NCBI RefSeq assembly: GCF_947487575.1 | Contig: NZ_CANKXG010000001.1 | Location: forward strand, 372,001-436,000 | Reading direction: 5' to 3' | Length of the DNA stretch: 64,000 nucleotides | Source of the DNA: an uncultured Algibacter sp. | GTDB lineage: Bacteria > Bacteroidota > Bacteroidia > Flavobacteriales > Flavobacteriaceae | In this document: one piece after another, positions 9,795 to 44,113 of the stretch | How the letters are laid out: each line of letters starts with the position of its first letter | Position numbering within the stretch: the stretch's first letter is position 1 | Notes under the pieces: generated by a model | What the model was told of the DNA's origin: nothing | Seen by the model: only the letters and a program-made list of their open reading frames with translations | The model's database searches: none | Translations under genes and position numbers: made by a program

Positions 9795-10172
9795 ATGTCT
9801 GCAACTTATCCCAAAAAAGAAAAGCTAAAAAGCAAAAAACTCATTGACCAATTGTTTACCGAAGGACAATCTGTTTCTGCTTTTCCGTTGCGGCTGGTAT
9901 ATTTATCTACACCATTTGAAGATAATGTTATTGCAAAAACAGGTGTTTCAGTAAGCAAAAAAAACTTTAAAACAGCTGTAGATAGAAACCATATAAAACG
10001 TTTGTTAAGAGAAGTTTATCGCTTAAATAAAGCTGAGTTTTTTAACAATTTAACAACACAACATGCGTTTATGATTTTGTACATTGGCAAAGAAAAACCC
10101 ACATTTGCCCAAGTTGAAACCAAAATGAAAGCTCTGTTTGGAAAGTTTTCAGCCAAAGTTTCAAAACCTTAA
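9795..10172 (+). CDS. rnpA: Ribonuclease P protein component
   Basis: The 125-aa basic protein has the RnpA signature: GVSVSKKNFKTAVDRNHIKR followed by LLREVYR, the RNR box that contacts the RNase P RNA. It starts with the usual KKEKLKSKKLIDQLFTEG. Together with the M1 RNA it removes 5' leaders from pre-tRNAs. ATG 9795 is chosen because it lies just downstream of a good promoter and gives the family length; the frame upstream (from 9750) would add a meaningless hydrophobic leader. It is not next to rpmH or dnaA here. The DUF4349 lipoprotein gene begins 13 bp after its stop. Confidence 0.95.
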   Translation: MSATYPKKEKLKSKKLIDQLFTEGQSVSAFPLRLVYLSTPFEDNVIAKTGVSVSKKNFKTAVDRNHIKRLLREVYRLNKAEFFNNLTTQHAFMILYIGKEKPTFAQVETKMKALFGKFSAKVSKP

Positions 10173-22053: not shown

Positions 22054-22131
22054 GGCTTCTAATCTGAGTCATCAAAAAACGCAAAATAAAAGTGTTTTTT
22101 ATACCTAAAAACCGTAATTAAGTATAGTTAA

Positions 22132-22530
22132 AACCATACAGCCCCCCTTTTTAACCCTTTAGGTGTTGGCTTAGTAAGAGATAAAGTTGCGCAAGTTCTT
22201 TTAATTTATACACATTCAGCTGGAGCGCCAAATAATGTATATGTAGATAATTTATATTTTTATAATGAAGGAACGCTTAACACAAAAGATTTTGAAATAG
22301 CTAGTCTTATCGCATACCCTAACCCATCTCAAAGTAGCTGGACAGTTAAAACACAAAACGCTAACATGTCTTCAATTAATGTATTTGATGTATTAGGCAA
22401 AAACGTATTAACATTATCGCCAAATAGAAACGAGGCAACAATAGAAGGTGCTAATTTAAAAAGAGGTATATATTTTGCTCAAATTAAAACAGCATCAGGT
22501 ATTAGCAGTTTAAAACTTATTAAACAATAA
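22132..22530 (+). pseudogene. Remnant of a T9SS-exported protein (C-terminal type A sorting domain)
   Basis: A frame open from 22132 to the TAA at 22528 has no usable start codon but encodes a recognisable C-terminus. NNVYVDNLYFYNEG resembles the end of a carbohydrate-binding or hydrolase domain, and IASLIAYPNPSQSSWTV, FDVLGKNVLTL and LKRGIYFAQIKTASGIS are the classical T9SS type A sorting domain, ending in LKLIKQ. A stop codon lies just upstream in frame. The catalytic or binding part is missing, so this looks like the tail of a deleted gene. The downstream terminator is still intact. Confidence 0.78.
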
Positions 22531-22638: not shown

Positions 22639-23331
22639 ATGTTTGATGATATTTTAACAGCTATACCCTTCGGCATCATACTAGCCTTTACCATAGGCCC
22701 AGTATTTTTCGTGTTGCTAGAAACCAGTGCTACCAAAGGCTTTAGAAGTGCCTTAATATTCGATTTAGGCGTCATTTTAGCAGATATTATTTTCATCGTA
22801 ATTGCTTTTTATAGTACCAATAGTTTAAGAGGCAAAATAGGAAACGATCCTAGTTTTCTGATATTCGGAGGAGTACTTTTAATGGTTTATGGTTTTATTT
22901 CATTTATCAAAACATCCAAATCCTTCAGAGCAATTGTTAAAGAATACCATAAAGTAGAAATAAAAAAAGGCTACGGAAAACTCTTCATCAAGGGCTTCTT
23001 ACTTAATTTTATAAATATAGGTGTACTTCTAGGTTGGCTTGGCTTTATTGTGTTAGGAGATTCTCTGACTACCTCAGAGCATGGCGATATTGTTTTTATA
23101 GTGTCTATGTTGGTTGCTTATTTTGTTTCGGATTTAGTCAAAATAGTCATAGCAAAAAGACTAAAGGCTAAATTAACGCCGCGACTCATTTTTAAAACAA
23201 AAAAAGTTATTGCTATGGTTATATTAGGTTTCGGTATATTATTATTTGTTCAAGGTTTATTTCCAGAAGCTTACGAAAAGAACAAAGAAAAATTAGAAAA
23301 AATTAGACCAATAAAAGAACAACTGCCTTAA
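22639..23331 (+). CDS. LysE family translocator
   Basis: The 230-aa membrane protein begins with the LysE-family pattern ILTAIPFGIILAFTIGPVFF, followed by VLLETSATKGFRSALIFDLG and DIIFIVIAF; about six hydrophobic segments follow and the tail is basic. Family members export amino acids or related solutes. The start is ATG 22639; the GTG at 22618 would add seven unlikely residues. The gene stands alone between the pseudogene terminator and the tRNA. Confidence 0.88.
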   Translation: MFDDILTAIPFGIILAFTIGPVFFVLLETSATKGFRSALIFDLGVILADIIFIVIAFYSTNSLRGKIGNDPSFLIFGGVLLMVYGFISFIKTSKSFRAIVKEYHKVEIKKGYGKLFIKGFLLNFINIGVLLGWLGFIVLGDSLTTSEHGDIVFIVSMLVAYFVSDLVKIVIAKRLKAKLTPRLIFKTKKVIAMVILGFGILLFVQGLFPEAYEKNKEKLEKIRPIKEQLP

Positions 23332-23484
23332 TAAACTACTTTTTTCAGGTAAAAAATTTAGTGTTAAAAACATTAAGAGCATATCTAAGTAGTGTCTTAA
23401 TCTTTACTCCTCAGTTGGATTTAAAAACAAAATCTAATGCCTCGATTTTAAACTTCTTAAATTAATTTTCCAGAAAATTTTATC

Positions 23485-23516
23485 ATAAAAAAACCCTCAA
23501 GAAAAACTTGAAGGTT
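23485..23516 (-). terminator. Terminator of tRNA-Cys (minus strand)
   Basis: Read on the minus strand, AACCTTCAAG pairs with CTTGAGGGTT (one G-U) around a 5-nt loop and is followed by a T tract. Confidence 0.75.
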
Positions 23517-23521
23517 CTTTG

Positions 23522-23592
23522 AGGCGTCGAGCGGATTCGAACCGCTGTACAAGGTTTTGCAGACCTCTGCCTAGCCACTCGGCCACGACGCC
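23522..23592 (-). tRNA. tRNA-Cys (GCA)
   Basis: The 71-nt minus-strand sequence folds into a cloverleaf. The acceptor stem is GGCGTCG/CGACGCC, the D arm starts GCCGAGTGGC, the anticodon loop CTGCAAA carries anticodon GCA, and the T loop is GTTCGAATC. The discriminator base is U, as required by cysteinyl-tRNA synthetase. CCA is not encoded. Confidence 0.96.
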
Positions 23593-23643
23593 TTAAATAT
23601 TAGTGCAAATGTAAAAAAAAATGTGACTTTACCTTACTTAAAA

Positions 23644-24006
23644 TTACTTTTTACGCTTATCGGTCATTTTTATCGTTACGCTTTCAACATCACCCCCTAT
23701 TGGCGGATTAAGTTTACTAACCCAAACTGTTGCCTTTTTAATAAGTTTATCTTCATTAAAAATCCTATTTAAAATACGTTTGGCAACTGCTTCAAGTAAA
23801 TGGGAGGCAATATCCATTTCTTCTTTTATAATTCTATTTAAAAACACATAATCAACAGTATCACTAAGTTTATCGCTTATTGCAGAGTTTTGTAAATCTG
23901 CTTTAACCTCCAAATCTACGCGATAATCACTACCAATTTTGGTTTCTTCTTTCAAACAACCATGATAGGCAAATACACGAATGTTTTCAACTTTTATAAT
24001 TCCCAT
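23644..24006 (-). CDS. folB: Dihydroneopterin aldolase
   Basis: The 120-aa protein has the FolB pattern: IIKVENIRVFAYHGCLKEET (active-site region with YHG), DYRVDLEVKADL, DTVDYVFLNRII, HLLEAVAKRI with the catalytic-site Glu, and KLNPPIGGDVESVTI. It converts dihydroneopterin to 6-hydroxymethyl-dihydropterin in folate synthesis. The start is ATG 24006; the longer frame upstream would run across glnS. It is divergent from glnS, with 100 bp of shared promoter DNA. Confidence 0.93.
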   Translation of the reverse strand: MGIIKVENIRVFAYHGCLKEETKIGSDYRVDLEVKADLQNSAISDKLSDTVDYVFLNRIIKEEMDIASHLLEAVAKRILNRIFNEDKLIKKATVWVSKLNPPIGGDVESVTIKMTDKRKK

Positions 24007-36500: not shown

Positions 36501-37022
36501 GGCGAAAAAGGAAAAGATGGCAAGTCTGGAGAAAACGGCAAAGGTAAAGGCGACCCAAAAGGAAAAGATGGTGAGCAAACTGGTGGTGAAGGAGAAGGTA
36601 CAAATGAAGGTGATAGCGAGCTTCTGTATCAAATATATCAACAGCAACAACAATTACGTCAAGCACTTCAAGATAGGCTAGCTAAAGAAGGCAAAGGCGG
36701 AAATAGAGACGCCTTGGTTAGAAAAATGGAAGACATTGAGTTAGATTTATTAAATAAGGGTTTTACGGAGCAAACGCTTCAAAAAATGATGGACTTAAAA
36801 CATCAGTTATTGAAACTTGAAAATGCAACTTTTCAACAAGGAGAAGATAATAAGCGTGAATCTGAAACCAATAAAAATAGATTTGATAATAACTCTAATA
36901 ATCAAATCCCAACAGCAAAACAATATTTTCAAACTACAGAAATATTAAACCGACAAGCTTTACCTTTGCAGCAAGTTTACAAAAAGAAAGTGCAAGATTA
37001 TTTTAAGAAAGCTAATGATTAA
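33579..37022 (+). CDS. DUF4175 large coiled-coil membrane protein
   Basis: From ATG 33579 the protein is 1147 aa. The N-terminal 170 residues have three hydrophobic helices (GVILFFAIGLLYFLFTLFL, FWLFIAVELGLLIKFIF, IPVVILLLAFITG). A beta-rich part follows, then a very long charged coiled coil (about residues 490-800, many EKLEKL/EEQ repeats) and a Gly/Lys/Glu-rich stretch (about 950-1015, GEGKKPGEGEKEGEKGK). A helical C-terminus with Gln-rich segments follows. It matches the DUF4175 family of Bacteroidota. Function is unknown; a scaffold at the envelope is an inference. It overlaps ybeY by 8 bp. Confidence 0.88.
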   Translation: MSNFNTIQNKLEAFIRRYYTNELLKGVILFFAIGLLYFLFTLFLEHILWLNTTSRTVLFWLFIAVELGLLIKFIFIPLAKLFKLQKGINYEVASRIIGKHFPEVDDKLLNVLQLHDEKSESELLLASIEQKSSELQPVPFKLAVNFKKNLGYLKYAAIPVVILLLAFITGNFNWFSDSYERVVHYKTAYEPPAPFQFFVVNENMNAIENKDFKLIVKTAGEVTPESAQITFNDETYFLQQKALGEFEYVFTQPKEAITFQLSANDITSKPYTVNVVETPSLLSFNMVLDYPSYTKKRDEILKSTGNALVPEGTQITWQLKTKSTDEVFLYAKDTIGFNSDKAGVFEASKRIYKNYDYTLSTSNKNLKNYENLTFNVDVVKDEYPEINLKVEKDSLDLQTLYFYGQVSDDYGFSKLQLVYYPSENEKDKQVESIPISNSNIAEFISAFPNNLNIKTGVPYELYFQVFDNDSVNRYKSVKSSVFTYRKRTKDEEAQKKLEEQSETIKDLNKSLEKFDEQEKKLEELTKTQKEKLSLNFNDKKKLESFFKRQKQQDEMIKNFNKKLKDNLEEFQKENPKEDEFKEDLKERLKDNEEKLKRDEKLLKEIEKLQEKINKEELIQKLDELAKQNKNKKRSLEQLLELTKRFYVEKKLEKLRDDLEKLADEQEKLSNKSDEENTQEKQDDLNKQFDKYKKEISDLEKESKALKKPIDIPRDKLDEQEVQKEQQKASEALEKKEEEQEQQEGTKQEQKEPSEQQKQNQKNAQKSQKKAAQKMKQMSQQMQSAMQSGGGEQMQEDMDMLRQILDNLVLFSFDQEALMNQFKSIEINHNKFATYLKKQRNLREHFEHVDDSLFALSLRQPKLSEQVNKEITEVYYNIDKALGLLAENQLYQGVSNQQFTVTAANNLADFLSNVLDNMQESMSMSAGKGGSGDMQLPDIIMSQEELNKMMEQGMKKGEGKPKEGEGKKPGEGEKEGEKGKDGKSGENGKGKGDPKGKDGEQTGGEGEGTNEGDSELLYQIYQQQQQLRQALQDRLAKEGKGGNRDALVRKMEDIELDLLNKGFTEQTLQKMMDLKHQLLKLENATFQQGEDNKRESETNKNRFDNNSNNQIPTAKQYFQTTEILNRQALPLQQVYKKKVQDYFKKAND

Positions 37023-37425
37023 TTTCAATTACGAAACAGCGTTTAATTTAGAATCGGAAGAGAAAATTTCAACTTGGATTACTAATACAATTTCTTCAGA
37101 AGTATTTAAATTAGAAGAAATAAATTATGTGTTTTGTAATGATGAATATCTTCATAAATTAAATGTTGAATTCCTAAATCATGATACATTAACGGATATT
37201 ATCAGCTTTGATTATTCAATAGGAAAAATCATACAAGGAGATATTTTTATTTCAATTGAAAGAGTGGCAGATAATGCCAAAGATTTTGGTGTTTCATTTG
37301 AAGAAGAGTTACACCGGGTAATTATTCATGGTGTATTGCATTATTGTGGTTATAAAGATAAAACAGATGATGATGCTAAGGTGATGCGAGAAAAGGAGAA
37401 TCACTACTTAACTGTACTAAAGTAG
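37015..37425 (+). CDS. ybeY: rRNA maturation RNase YbeY
   Basis: The 136-aa protein has the YbeY order of motifs: YVFCNDEYLHKLNVEFLNHD, TLTDIISFDYS, GDIFISIERV, and the metal motif HGVLHYCGYKD. The family consensus is HGxLHxxGYxH; the third His is Asp here, which I recall as common in Bacteroidota. It processes 16S rRNA ends. Translation is coupled to the DUF4175 gene by an 8-bp overlap; mnmG follows. Confidence 0.93.
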   Translation: MINFNYETAFNLESEEKISTWITNTISSEVFKLEEINYVFCNDEYLHKLNVEFLNHDTLTDIISFDYSIGKIIQGDIFISIERVADNAKDFGVSFEEELHRVIIHGVLHYCGYKDKTDDDAKVMREKENHYLTVLK

Positions 37426-37470: not shown

Positions 37471-37486
37471 TGTTCCACGTGGAACA
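37471..37486. other. parS-like centromere site 1
   Basis: TGTTCCACGTGGAACA is a perfect 16-bp palindrome (18 bp including flanking A/T) and matches the parS consensus bound by ParB/Spo0J in many bacteria. It lies in the ybeY-mnmG gap. Confidence 0.8.
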
Positions 37487-37508
37487 TCTTTTTGAAAACT
37501 ATTTAGTA

Positions 37509-37533
37509 TGTCATACTGAGCGCAGTCGAAGTG
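37509..37533. repeat. Dispersed REP-like element
   Basis: GTCATACTGAGCGCAGTCGA and flanks match, from memory, a short GC-richer element dispersed in many Bacteroidota genomes. It sits between parS 1 and mnmG. Only one copy was noticed in this window. Confidence 0.5.
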
Positions 37534-37569
37534 TAATTAAAAACTAAATATTAAATTGAATTAGAACTT

Positions 37570-39441
37570 ATGTTTAATGAGGTTTATGATGTCATAGTTG
37601 TTGGAGCAGGTCACGCAGGAAGTGAAGCTGCTGCTGCTGCTGCCAATATGGGAAGTAAAACCCTATTGGTTACCATGAATTTGCAAAACATTGCGCAAAT
37701 GTCTTGTAATCCTGCCATGGGTGGTATTGCTAAAGGGCAAATTGTACGTGAGATTGATGCGCTTGGTGGTTATAGTGGAATTGTTTCAGATACTTCGGCA
37801 ATTCAATTTAAAATGCTGAATAAATCTAAAGGGCCTGCTATGTGGAGTCCAAGGGTGCAGAGTGATAGAATGCGTTTTGCAGAAGACTGGAGATTGCTTT
37901 TAGAAGGCACGCCTAATCTTGATTTTTATCAAGAAATGGTTTCTGCTTTAATAGTAGAAAATCATAAAGTAGTTGGTGTAAAAACTTCTTTAGGAATTGA
38001 AATAAAAGCTAAGTCTGTTGTTTTAACAAACGGTACTTTTTTAAATGGCTTAATACATATAGGTGATAAGAATTTTGGAGGAGGAAGAGCAGGCGAAAGA
38101 GCAGCAACGGGTATTACAGAGCAGCTTGTTAATTTAGGTTTTGATTCTGGTAGAATGAAAACTGGAACACCACCAAGAGTTGATGGTAGAAGTTTAGATT
38201 ATTCTAAAATGCTAGAGCAACCTGGGGATGAAAACCCAGAAAAATTCTCATATTTAGATACAACGAAAGCATTAGAAAATCAACGTTCATGCCACATGAC
38301 TTATACCAGTCTTGAAGTGCATGATTTACTTCGAGAAGGGTTTGATAGGTCGCCCATGTTTAACGGTAGAATTAAAAGTTTAGGACCACGATATTGTCCG
38401 TCTATTGAAGATAAGATCAATCGTTTTGCAGATAAAGACAGACATCAATTATTTATAGAACCAGAAGGCTGGAATACTTGCGAGGTTTATGTAAATGGCT
38501 TCTCTACGTCTTTGCCCGAAGATGTTCAATTCAAAGCATTACGTTCTGTAGTTGGTTTTGAAAATGTGAAATTCTTTAGACCAGGTTATGCTATAGAATA
38601 TGATTATTTTCCGCCTACACAATTAAAACATACTTTGGAAACAAAGCTAGTTGAAGGCTTATATTTTGCAGGTCAAATTAACGGAACTACAGGGTATGAG
38701 GAAGCGGCATCTCAAGGTTTAATGGCTGGTATAAATGCGAGTTTAAAAGTTCAAGAAAAAGACCCTTTTACTTTAAAAAGGGATGAGGCTTATATAGGTG
38801 TTTTGGTTGATGATTTGATTACAAAAGGCACAGAAGAACCTTATCGTATGTTTACATCAAGAGCTGAATATAGAACGCTATTGCGTCAAGATAATGCTGA
38901 TAAAAGATTAACACCAAAAGGGTTTGAATTGGGGCTAGCTTCTGAAAAGCGTTTAAAACGCATGGAAGAAAAACACGAAGCTGCTGAAAAATTCGTTACC
39001 TTTTTTGAGACTGAAAGCGTAAAACCAGACGTTATAAATCCTATTCTAGAATCAAAAAAATCTGCTGCAGTAAAACAATCTGGAAAACTTTTTAAAGTAT
39101 TTGCTAGACCAAATATTGAGATGGATGATGTTAGAAAAGTAGAAAGTGTAGAATCCTACATTCAGGAACATAATCTAGATAGAGAAGTGATTGAGCAAAC
39201 CGAAATTCAAGTTAAATATGCTGGATATATAGCCAAGGAAAAAAACAATGCTGATAAACTAACACGATTAGAATACGTTAAAATTCCAGAGAATTTTGAC
39301 TATTCACAAATTAAGTCTATGAGCTTTGAAGCACGTGAAAAATTGAAAAAGATTCAACCAACAACGGTGTCTCAAGCATCAAGAATTAGCGGCGTATCGC
39401 CAAATGATATTTCAGTTTTATTGGTTTATATGGGAAGATAA
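37570..39441 (+). CDS. mnmG: tRNA uridine-5-carboxymethylaminomethyl modification enzyme MnmG
   Basis: The 623-aa flavoprotein opens with the FAD-binding GxGxxG-type DVIVVGAGHAGSEAAAAAAN, followed by NPAMGGIAKGQIVREIDALG and LKTGTPPRVDGR-type residues (GRMKTGTPPRVDGRSLDYSK). Another conserved stretch is GQINGTTGYEEAASQGLMAG, and a helical C-terminal domain binds MnmE/tRNA (RISGVSPNDISVLLVYMGR at the end). With MnmE it modifies wobble U34. In many bacteria mnmG lies near the origin, consistent with parS sites on both sides here. Confidence 0.97.
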   Translation: MFNEVYDVIVVGAGHAGSEAAAAAANMGSKTLLVTMNLQNIAQMSCNPAMGGIAKGQIVREIDALGGYSGIVSDTSAIQFKMLNKSKGPAMWSPRVQSDRMRFAEDWRLLLEGTPNLDFYQEMVSALIVENHKVVGVKTSLGIEIKAKSVVLTNGTFLNGLIHIGDKNFGGGRAGERAATGITEQLVNLGFDSGRMKTGTPPRVDGRSLDYSKMLEQPGDENPEKFSYLDTTKALENQRSCHMTYTSLEVHDLLREGFDRSPMFNGRIKSLGPRYCPSIEDKINRFADKDRHQLFIEPEGWNTCEVYVNGFSTSLPEDVQFKALRSVVGFENVKFFRPGYAIEYDYFPPTQLKHTLETKLVEGLYFAGQINGTTGYEEAASQGLMAGINASLKVQEKDPFTLKRDEAYIGVLVDDLITKGTEEPYRMFTSRAEYRTLLRQDNADKRLTPKGFELGLASEKRLKRMEEKHEAAEKFVTFFETESVKPDVINPILESKKSAAVKQSGKLFKVFARPNIEMDDVRKVESVESYIQEHNLDREVIEQTEIQVKYAGYIAKEKNNADKLTRLEYVKIPENFDYSQIKSMSFEAREKLKKIQPTTVSQASRISGVSPNDISVLLVYMGR

Positions 39442-39470
39442 GACGATAGTCGGCGTTAGTTAATTAGATA

Positions 39471-39486
39471 TGTTCCACGTGGAACG
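39471..39486. other. parS-like centromere site 2
   Basis: TGTTCCACGTGGAACG differs from site 1 only at the last base (15 of 16). It is 2000 bp from site 1, in the gap after mnmG. Confidence 0.78.
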
Positions 39487-39531: not shown

Positions 39532-40092
39532 GTGCAAAAATCAATAATATTATTACTTTTTATTTCAATAGTTATTTTCTCTTGTAAAGAAAAAAAAAGT
39601 AAAATAGAACTTGTTAAAAAATACTTTGAGACTTTAAATAATTCTGAATTTTCGAATGTGTCTTCATTGTTATCGGACAGTATATTAAGTAAAGAAGTTG
39701 ACTATAAGATGATGTTTTATAAAGAAGATTATCTCGAACTTTTGAAATGGGATTCAACTTTTAAACCAGAATATAAGGTTATAAATATAAGCGAAGAGGA
39801 AGGGATTATTAAAATTAAAATTTCTCAAAAAGATAAACGAATCCTTTTTTTAAATGAAGAGTCAATAATAACGAATCAAGTTATTAGGTTTAAAAACGAT
39901 AAAATATCAAATATAGAAATAGTAGATTATGTCGTTTTTAATGACTCAATATTTATTAGAAATAGAACTAAACTTTTAAATTGGGTAGATAAAAATCATG
40001 CTGAATTAAAAGGATTTTTGCATAATCAAACTCAAAAAGGAGGAGTAAAATATTTAAAAGCTATTGAGCTTTATCAAGAAGCTAATAAATAA
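39532..40092 (+). CDS. Small lipoprotein of unknown function
   Basis: The 186-aa product, starting at GTG 39532, has a lipoprotein signal (SIILLLFISIVIFSCKEKK). The mature part starts IELVKKYFETLNNSEFSNVS and reads like a SnoaL/NTF2-like fold, with IKIKISQKDKRILFL and NQVIRFKNDKISNIEIV, but no active-site residues can be named. It follows mnmG and parS 2 and is 13 bp upstream of the methyltransferase ATG. Confidence 0.65.
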   Translation: MQKSIILLLFISIVIFSCKEKKSKIELVKKYFETLNNSEFSNVSSLLSDSILSKEVDYKMMFYKEDYLELLKWDSTFKPEYKVINISEEEGIIKIKISQKDKRILFLNEESIITNQVIRFKNDKISNIEIVDYVVFNDSIFIRNRTKLLNWVDKNHAELKGFLHNQTQKGGVKYLKAIELYQEANK

Positions 40093-43934: not shown

Positions 43935-44113
43935 TTATTTGGGCGTTACCCGAAAAGGGTCGGGCTTTCCGCTATATCTTTTTTATGTCATAGCTAGGAG
44001 CGGGCAACGTGGTTATCTGTTAATTTCAGTTCTAAAGTAAAGGTGTATCTATTTCTTTAAAAAAGGATGCCGCTTCAATCCCTAACGCGCTTGCTTGCTA
44101 TCTTAGGGATTTA
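43935..44113 (+). repeat. Dispersed GC-richer repeat, copy 3 with internal extra DNA
   Basis: The first 35 bp are identical to copy 1 (21126). The tail GATGCCGCTTCAATCCCTAA lies at about 44067-44086. Between them (about 43990-44060) is sequence not seen in the other copies, as if the element were interrupted. Confidence 0.7.

Follow-up and report, generated by a model that had tools for sequence, protein, structure and literature searches.

The mnmG locus and its palindromes

The stretch of DNA considered here, i.e., the window, is 64,000 nucleotides in length and consists of bases 372001-436000 of contig C1 (478,736 bp), within a genome of 3,515,071 bases on 35 contigs that is 99.88% complete. 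The gene of interest is mnmG (gidA). This open reading frame scores 846.9 bits against TIGR00136, relative to a cut-off of 524.85, and is 68-98% identical to the mnmG of relatives as found in the fetched family and relative loci. Identities to two Algibacter records are 96% and 94%, a comparison from which records of this genome itself perhaps were left out, and the host, to judge from mnmG, is a flavobacterium near Algibacter. Upstream of mnmG is ybeY, and downstream is a 186-aa frame (Table 1).

Table 1. Features of the mnmG locus, of the window and of the parAB locus, with window positions except where a locus is named
Feature	Position	Strand	Basis
parS site 1, perfect palindrome, upstream side of mnmG	37471-37486	.	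pattern match, 0 mismatches; recurs at same place in relatives
parS site 2, 15/16 bases, downstream side of mnmG	39471-39486	.	pattern match, 1 mismatch; recurs at same place in relatives
mnmG (gidA), framed gene	37570-39441	+	ORF; TIGR00136 above cut-off; identity to relatives' mnmG
ybeY, upstream neighbour	37015-37425	+	ORF; TIGR00043 above cut-off
rnpA	9795-10172	+	Pfam Ribonuclease_P
Third-codon GC skew switch, negative to positive; inferred origin vicinity	22639-23981	.	gene-by-gene skew
ParA-type ATPase, 254 aa, preceding parB of contig C8	L101:15999-16763		Pfam AAA_31, 2.5e-68

Framing mnmG are two 16-bp sites, one a perfect palindrome and the other differing from it at a single base. 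Both are intergenic, site 1 falling between mnmG and the end of the ybeY frame at 37425, and site 2 between mnmG and the following listed frame, which begins at 39532. The initial annotation had described this same arrangement, i.e., a perfect and a near-perfect palindrome, exactly 2000 bp apart and bracketing mnmG, and recomputation of coordinates, mismatches, frame ends and start-to-start distance, along with identification of mnmG by TIGR00136, bears out each of these points.

The sites are the sole matches to the word in the window, even at up to three mismatches, versus a mean of 0.07 matches (maximum 1) in 100 dinucleotide shuffles of the window. They are as well the only matches in the whole genome at up to two mismatches, with a reversed-pattern control giving zero, so the word is not scattered through the genome, which is the pattern that the initial annotation had named as counting against its reading. 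A looser Y/R pattern, at up to one mismatch, gives two matches over the genome and one for the reversed control.

The spacing of precisely 2000 bp is incidental, with the distance between sites tracking the length of mnmG. Over 28 site pairs, this genome's included, spacing ranges from 1894 to 2046 bp, with a median of 1920.5 bp. These pairs come from 28 of the 37 family genomes with tabulated sites, leaving aside those with a single site (G336, G254, G311, G115, G034) or more than one site per side (G072, G351, G177), as well as G357 (incompletely tabulated); a third site in G107, found on another contig, was disregarded. At Rfam gathering scores the window contains only tRNA-Cys and a Flavo-1 RNA (RF01705), neither at the sites, with the Flavo-1 RNA (43954-44103; 46.5 bits) about 4.5 kb from site 2.

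Recurrence of the sites at mnmG

Within Flavobacteriaceae, at least one match to the strict word, at up to one mismatch, is present in 368 of 397 genomes, this one counted. Relaxing position 5 to T or C and position 12 to A or G supplies 18 of the remaining 29 with a site, i.e., 386 of 397. Where the surrounding locus was obtained, the gene found at the site was mnmG in 29 of 29 relatives (L007-L035) and in 16 of 17 further family loci (L313-L329), with L319 lacking it.

The same association is seen when starting instead from mnmG, a choice of loci which does not select for sites. Among the best 80 of 590 confirmed mnmG loci, and within 1 kb of the gene, sites are present on both sides in 67 at up to one mismatch and in 75 at up to two, while at least one site is present in 76 and 79, respectively. 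By way of comparison, 40 palindromes shuffled from the word's own letters, each tried on 20 of these loci, yielded means of 0.05 of 20 (maximum 2) at up to one mismatch and 0.1 of 20 (maximum 4) at up to two. The five exceptions to two-sidedness are L172 (a Capnocytophaga MAG), which displays no site within 1 kb of mnmG at up to two mismatches; L183, with two-mismatch sites downstream only; and L179 (Fluviicola), L186 (Algoriphagus) and L187 (Roseivirga), with upstream sites only. In many relatives the sites are found some 20-40 bp before the start of mnmG and 4-15 bp after its stop, and some Flavobacterium loci possess up to seven sites over hundreds of bases upstream.

Beyond the family, at least one site was found in 30 of 36 genomes drawn from the order and in 40 of 41 drawn from the phylum, the two draws having members in common and also taking in genomes of the family. 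The loci around the best sites (L188-L241; n=54, four of them from the family) hold mnmG in 50 cases, with those lacking it being L195, which is cut by a contig end, L220, L221 and L239. Of order genomes not belonging to the family, 13 of 31 have pairs 1.85-2.2 kb apart, as do 12 of 26 listed genomes from beyond the order (36 such genomes were in the draw). In these order and phylum samples, that is, sites at mnmG are the rule, and the two-sided pair is frequent without being universal. The parS-mnmG link is suggested to be older than the rest of its neighbourhood because ybeY is detected in all 24 family loci holding the mnmG start versus 18 of 33 order and phylum loci, as by tblastn with this genome's ybeY as query, with which divergent copies may be missed.

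Eleven of the 397 family genomes display no site at up to one mismatch of the Y/R consensus. Nine of these encode ParB, and the two which do not, G161 and G333, are only 75-76% complete. Outside of the family, G400, G406, G425 and G458 likewise encode ParB with no site at up to one mismatch. At up to two mismatches, some siteless genomes give candidate pairs of the expected spacing, i.e., 1907 bp in G371 and approximately 2.0 kb in G320, in a search in which chance matches are common, the reversed control giving up to five per genome. The reduced genomes G410, G419 and G426 (0.3-0.6 Mb) are without ParB and without sites at up to one mismatch, with a single two-mismatch match in G419.

The replication origin and the ParAB proteins

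Skew at third codon positions switches sign to the left of the palindromes, 13.5-15 kb from site 1. All 12 stretches sampled over 1-350 kb of contig C1 have negative third-codon GC skew, and the single stretch sampled at 440-460 kb has positive skew. Gene by gene about window position 23.5 kb, 152 of 209 genes to the left are negative and 42 of 51 to the right are positive (Mann-Whitney p 1.4e-14, with neighbouring genes non-independent and the split picked from the same data), and the best single break falls between the two gene starts that bound the switch in Table 1. Genes of the + strand show a clear change, from -0.13 to +0.16, and those of the - strand, of which 11 are to the right, a weaker one, from -0.13 to +0.02. 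Just to the right of the sites, at 40-46 kb, several genes are negative again. Also found in the window is rnpA, a gene often located near origins. Between two genes beside the skew break (22054-22530) there is, by eye, an apparent remnant of the C-terminal sorting tail of a secreted protein.

When total GC skew is fitted with two arms, the origins of five complete relatives are placed 31 (G143), 38 (G335), 56 (G306) and 65 kb (G059) from parS, and 178 kb from it in G302, for which skew is weak. These values are limited by the sampling, at 20 places per genome (roughly 60-110 kb apart near parS), and by a fit grid of 25 kb. The parS-holding stretch itself is still skew-negative in G306, G059 and G302. 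The cumulative minimum of G335 immediately follows rnr, some 31 kb to the left of parS, and the switch is within the rnr-glnS interval both there and here (rnr and glnS by NCBIfam). The window by GC skew is origin-proximal, as the initial annotation had supposed that it might be, given a switch within the window and agreement from four of five complete relatives, the fifth being G302.

In these same five relatives the fitted origin is 1.0-2.0 Mb from dnaA. Over eight single-contig relatives, parS is 1.05-2.03 Mb from dnaA and 0.65-1.41 Mb from parB (distances for G154, G336 and G254 computed by hand). Records with numbering from dnaA do not begin at the origin, and in G143 dnaA is approximately 0.3-0.6 Mb from the fitted terminus. 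Searched with the 9-base DnaA-box consensus at up to one mismatch, the window gives 29 matches, at most two per 500 bp, with no cluster around mnmG. The oriC indicator genes include mnmG (gidA). In PMC11278836 and PMC12843772, oriC is predicted, by Ori-Finder and GC skew, at mnmG in species of Flavobacteriaceae, and a Figure S2 legend mentions indicator genes, such that the oriC call may not be independent of mnmG. A figure legend in PMC11278836, contradicting that paper's own text, makes mnmG ter and leuB/dnaA oriC; in the text of that paper as available for look-up, ParB has zero mentions and 'parS' is found only within 'parsimony'. According to PMC10197239, origins do not always accompany dnaA.

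Three matches to TIGR00180 are present in the genome, on contigs C8, C3 and C6. None is on the window's contig, in line with the initial annotation's remark that parB is absent from the window. The match on C8 is an open frame of 308 aa, or 304 aa as counted from its ATG, and it adjoins a ParA-type ATPase, so the lack of any encoded ParB homologue, another possibility which that annotation had raised against its own reading, is not the case. Gene order there is ParA-type ATPase, parB, a 206-aa frame and dapB, and the ParA did not reach the cut-off of any of the 25 NCBIfam models shown. The C3 and C6 matches (L004, L005) are frames of 602 aa each which, as a guess, perhaps come from integrated mobile elements.

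The C8 ParB scores above cut-offs for ParB_N (PF02195) and HTH_ParB (PF17762), with its dimerisation domain, ParB_C (PF23552), at 23.6 bits falling just below a cut-off of 23.8. Against TIGR00180 it scores 170.4 bits (cut-off 58.45), its closest solved relatives are ParB/Spo0J, and a GERRFR motif, of the GERR type associated with CTP binding, is visible in the frame. Residues 173, 179, 184 and 201 (Caulobacter numbering, assigned by motif without alignment to the Caulobacter chain) are R, Y, K and G. In PMC7383237, proteins with R173/G201, the RXXG class, are described as binding parS, with Noc possessing Q173/R201, and by this rule and that motif reading the C8 ParB is predicted to be of the class said to bind parS.

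That this ParB instead is Noc is not supported, given the R and G read by motif at 173 and 201 and a score against the NCBI Noc model, TIGR04285, of 244.3 bits, which is higher than its score against the ParB model yet under the Noc cut-off of 315. Noc sites, for their part, are dispersed around the chromosome. The Noc/NBS system of Bacillus shares its protein superfamily with the system here, differing from it in those two residues, as read by motif, and in the site, which here is parS-like.

No canonical SMC-length frame was found in this genome, the 18 SMC_N matches belonging to frames 228-630 aa long. The top two matches, in frames with lengths of 551 and 369 aa, resemble RecN and RecF, and one usual partner of ParB seems to be missing from this genome. 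Two Bacteroidetes in the set of PMC10197239 are reported there to have no known condensin homologue.

Interpretation as a probable two-site centromere

The palindromes very probably form the centromere (parS) of the chromosome, within a two-site ParABS system anchored at mnmG, a prediction made from sequence. ParB, a CTP-dependent clamp encoded elsewhere, would load at both sites flanking mnmG, and then would slide, spreading over mnmG and adjacent DNA. ParA, encoded beside ParB, would move the resulting complex, with the newly copied origin region thereby being separated first. Such loading, spreading and movement are known ParABS behaviours, as described in PMC7333895; their occurrence at this locus is what we infer. 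In favour of this reading are the uniqueness of the sites in the genome, their recurrence at mnmG, the parA-parB pair with the domains and motif residues of its ParB, the nearby skew switch, and the joint lack of ParB and of sites in the three reduced genomes. Weighing against it are the ParB-encoding genomes without sites, loci L172 and L183, the Noc score, the distance between parS and parAB, the seeming lack of an SMC partner and the remote skew switch of G302.

A role in the regulation of mnmG can be envisaged as well, with the palindromes serving as operators or, alternatively, as RNA hairpins of the mnmG transcript, located in its leader and its trailer. It is highly improbable, though the closeness of the sites to mnmG in many relatives, as described above on both sides of the gene, would suit it, as would some of their symmetry. 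Over 205 sites near mnmG, chosen at up to three mismatches, which limits a covariation test, the outer pair of bases is paired in 155 versus 145.3 in shuffles, with 11 of 14 double changes still paired, and pair 5/12 is paired in 164 versus 153.9. A slight excess symmetry of this kind, however, is predicted by a dimeric DNA-binding protein and by an RNA stem alike, and favours neither. Pairs 2-4 and 6 are nearly invariant over the 205 sites, and none of their changes is compensated, though compensated changes ought to be acceptable in a plain stem. Among sites chosen at up to one mismatch, double changes are excluded by the selection itself, and the abrupt loss of conservation at the borders of the 16-bp core, in part likewise a product of choosing sites by pattern, is given no weight. 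The multiple upstream sites of some Flavobacterium loci, up to seven over hundreds of bases, also fit poorly with a regulatory role, and sequence, ParB and skew all fit parS.

The sites might instead be part of the replication origin, bound by an initiator, with mnmG marking oriC, as the predictions of PMC11278836 and PMC12843772 would have it. Against this, which is extremely improbable, the skew break is well to the left of site 1 and the G335 minimum farther left still, DnaA boxes do not cluster around mnmG, and the word is the ParB consensus rather than a DnaA box. As to the sites representing non-functional relics or a chance pair, this is exceedingly improbable, with chance expectation, by shuffles and reversed control, far below one, and with 386 of the family's 397 genomes possessing one site or more.

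As a two-site centromere, then, the locus would belong to a ParABS system which itself is of a known kind. With the ParABS of Caulobacter, Bacillus and Pseudomonas it has in common a 16-bp palindromic site, here in few and clustered copies; a ParB possessing ParB_N, an HTH domain and the RXXG residues, these last by motif reading here; ParA beside ParB; and sites near the origin, here by GC skew alone. Unlike in those systems, the sites frame mnmG, are unlinked from parAB (in eight relatives) and from dnaA, and are found in a genome in which no canonical SMC-length frame was found. The oriC predictions for Mariniflexile and Algorimicrobium (PMC11278836, PMC12843772) share family, gene and a skew-based origin with the present case, differing in that the skew break here is off to one side of site 1. 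PMC10197239 cites a survey of parS sites (Livny et al. 2007), and a literature search covering titles, abstract openings and some passages found no description of a parS-mnmG link across Bacteroidota.

The simplest account historically would be that mnmG is an old neighbour of the origin, with the sites having stayed as parAB and dnaA moved elsewhere. That selection, not history alone, keeps mnmG within the centromere, with tRNA modification coupled to origin segregation across Bacteroidota, seems unlikely. Under such coupling, ParB loading on the flanks could tune mnmG transcription or, alternatively, mnmG transcription could shape ParB spreading. The link does persist where ybeY goes undetected and where parAB and dnaA are far away.

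Read as centromere-bearing, mnmG could serve as a one-gene landmark for the centromere of flavobacteria, probably of much of the phylum, and as a rough guide to the origin in a setting in which dnaA is off by one to two megabases. A testable puzzle is presented as well, i.e., a centromere on both sides of one tRNA-modification gene with parAB and dnaA elsewhere, along with a second question, that of ParB function in a genome seemingly without a canonical SMC-length frame.

Two variations on the sites may be mentioned. In Tenacibaculum (L157, L159, L161) a variant word, TGTTCCACAAGGAACA, is found near mnmG, with the parS sites there partly degenerate. In Flavobacterium sp. MC2016-06 (L122:2321-2941), upstream of mnmG, the parS-like word TGTTCCACATGGAACA is present in four exact copies within a tandem repeat made up of about five 117-bp units, which perhaps is an amplified centromere array.
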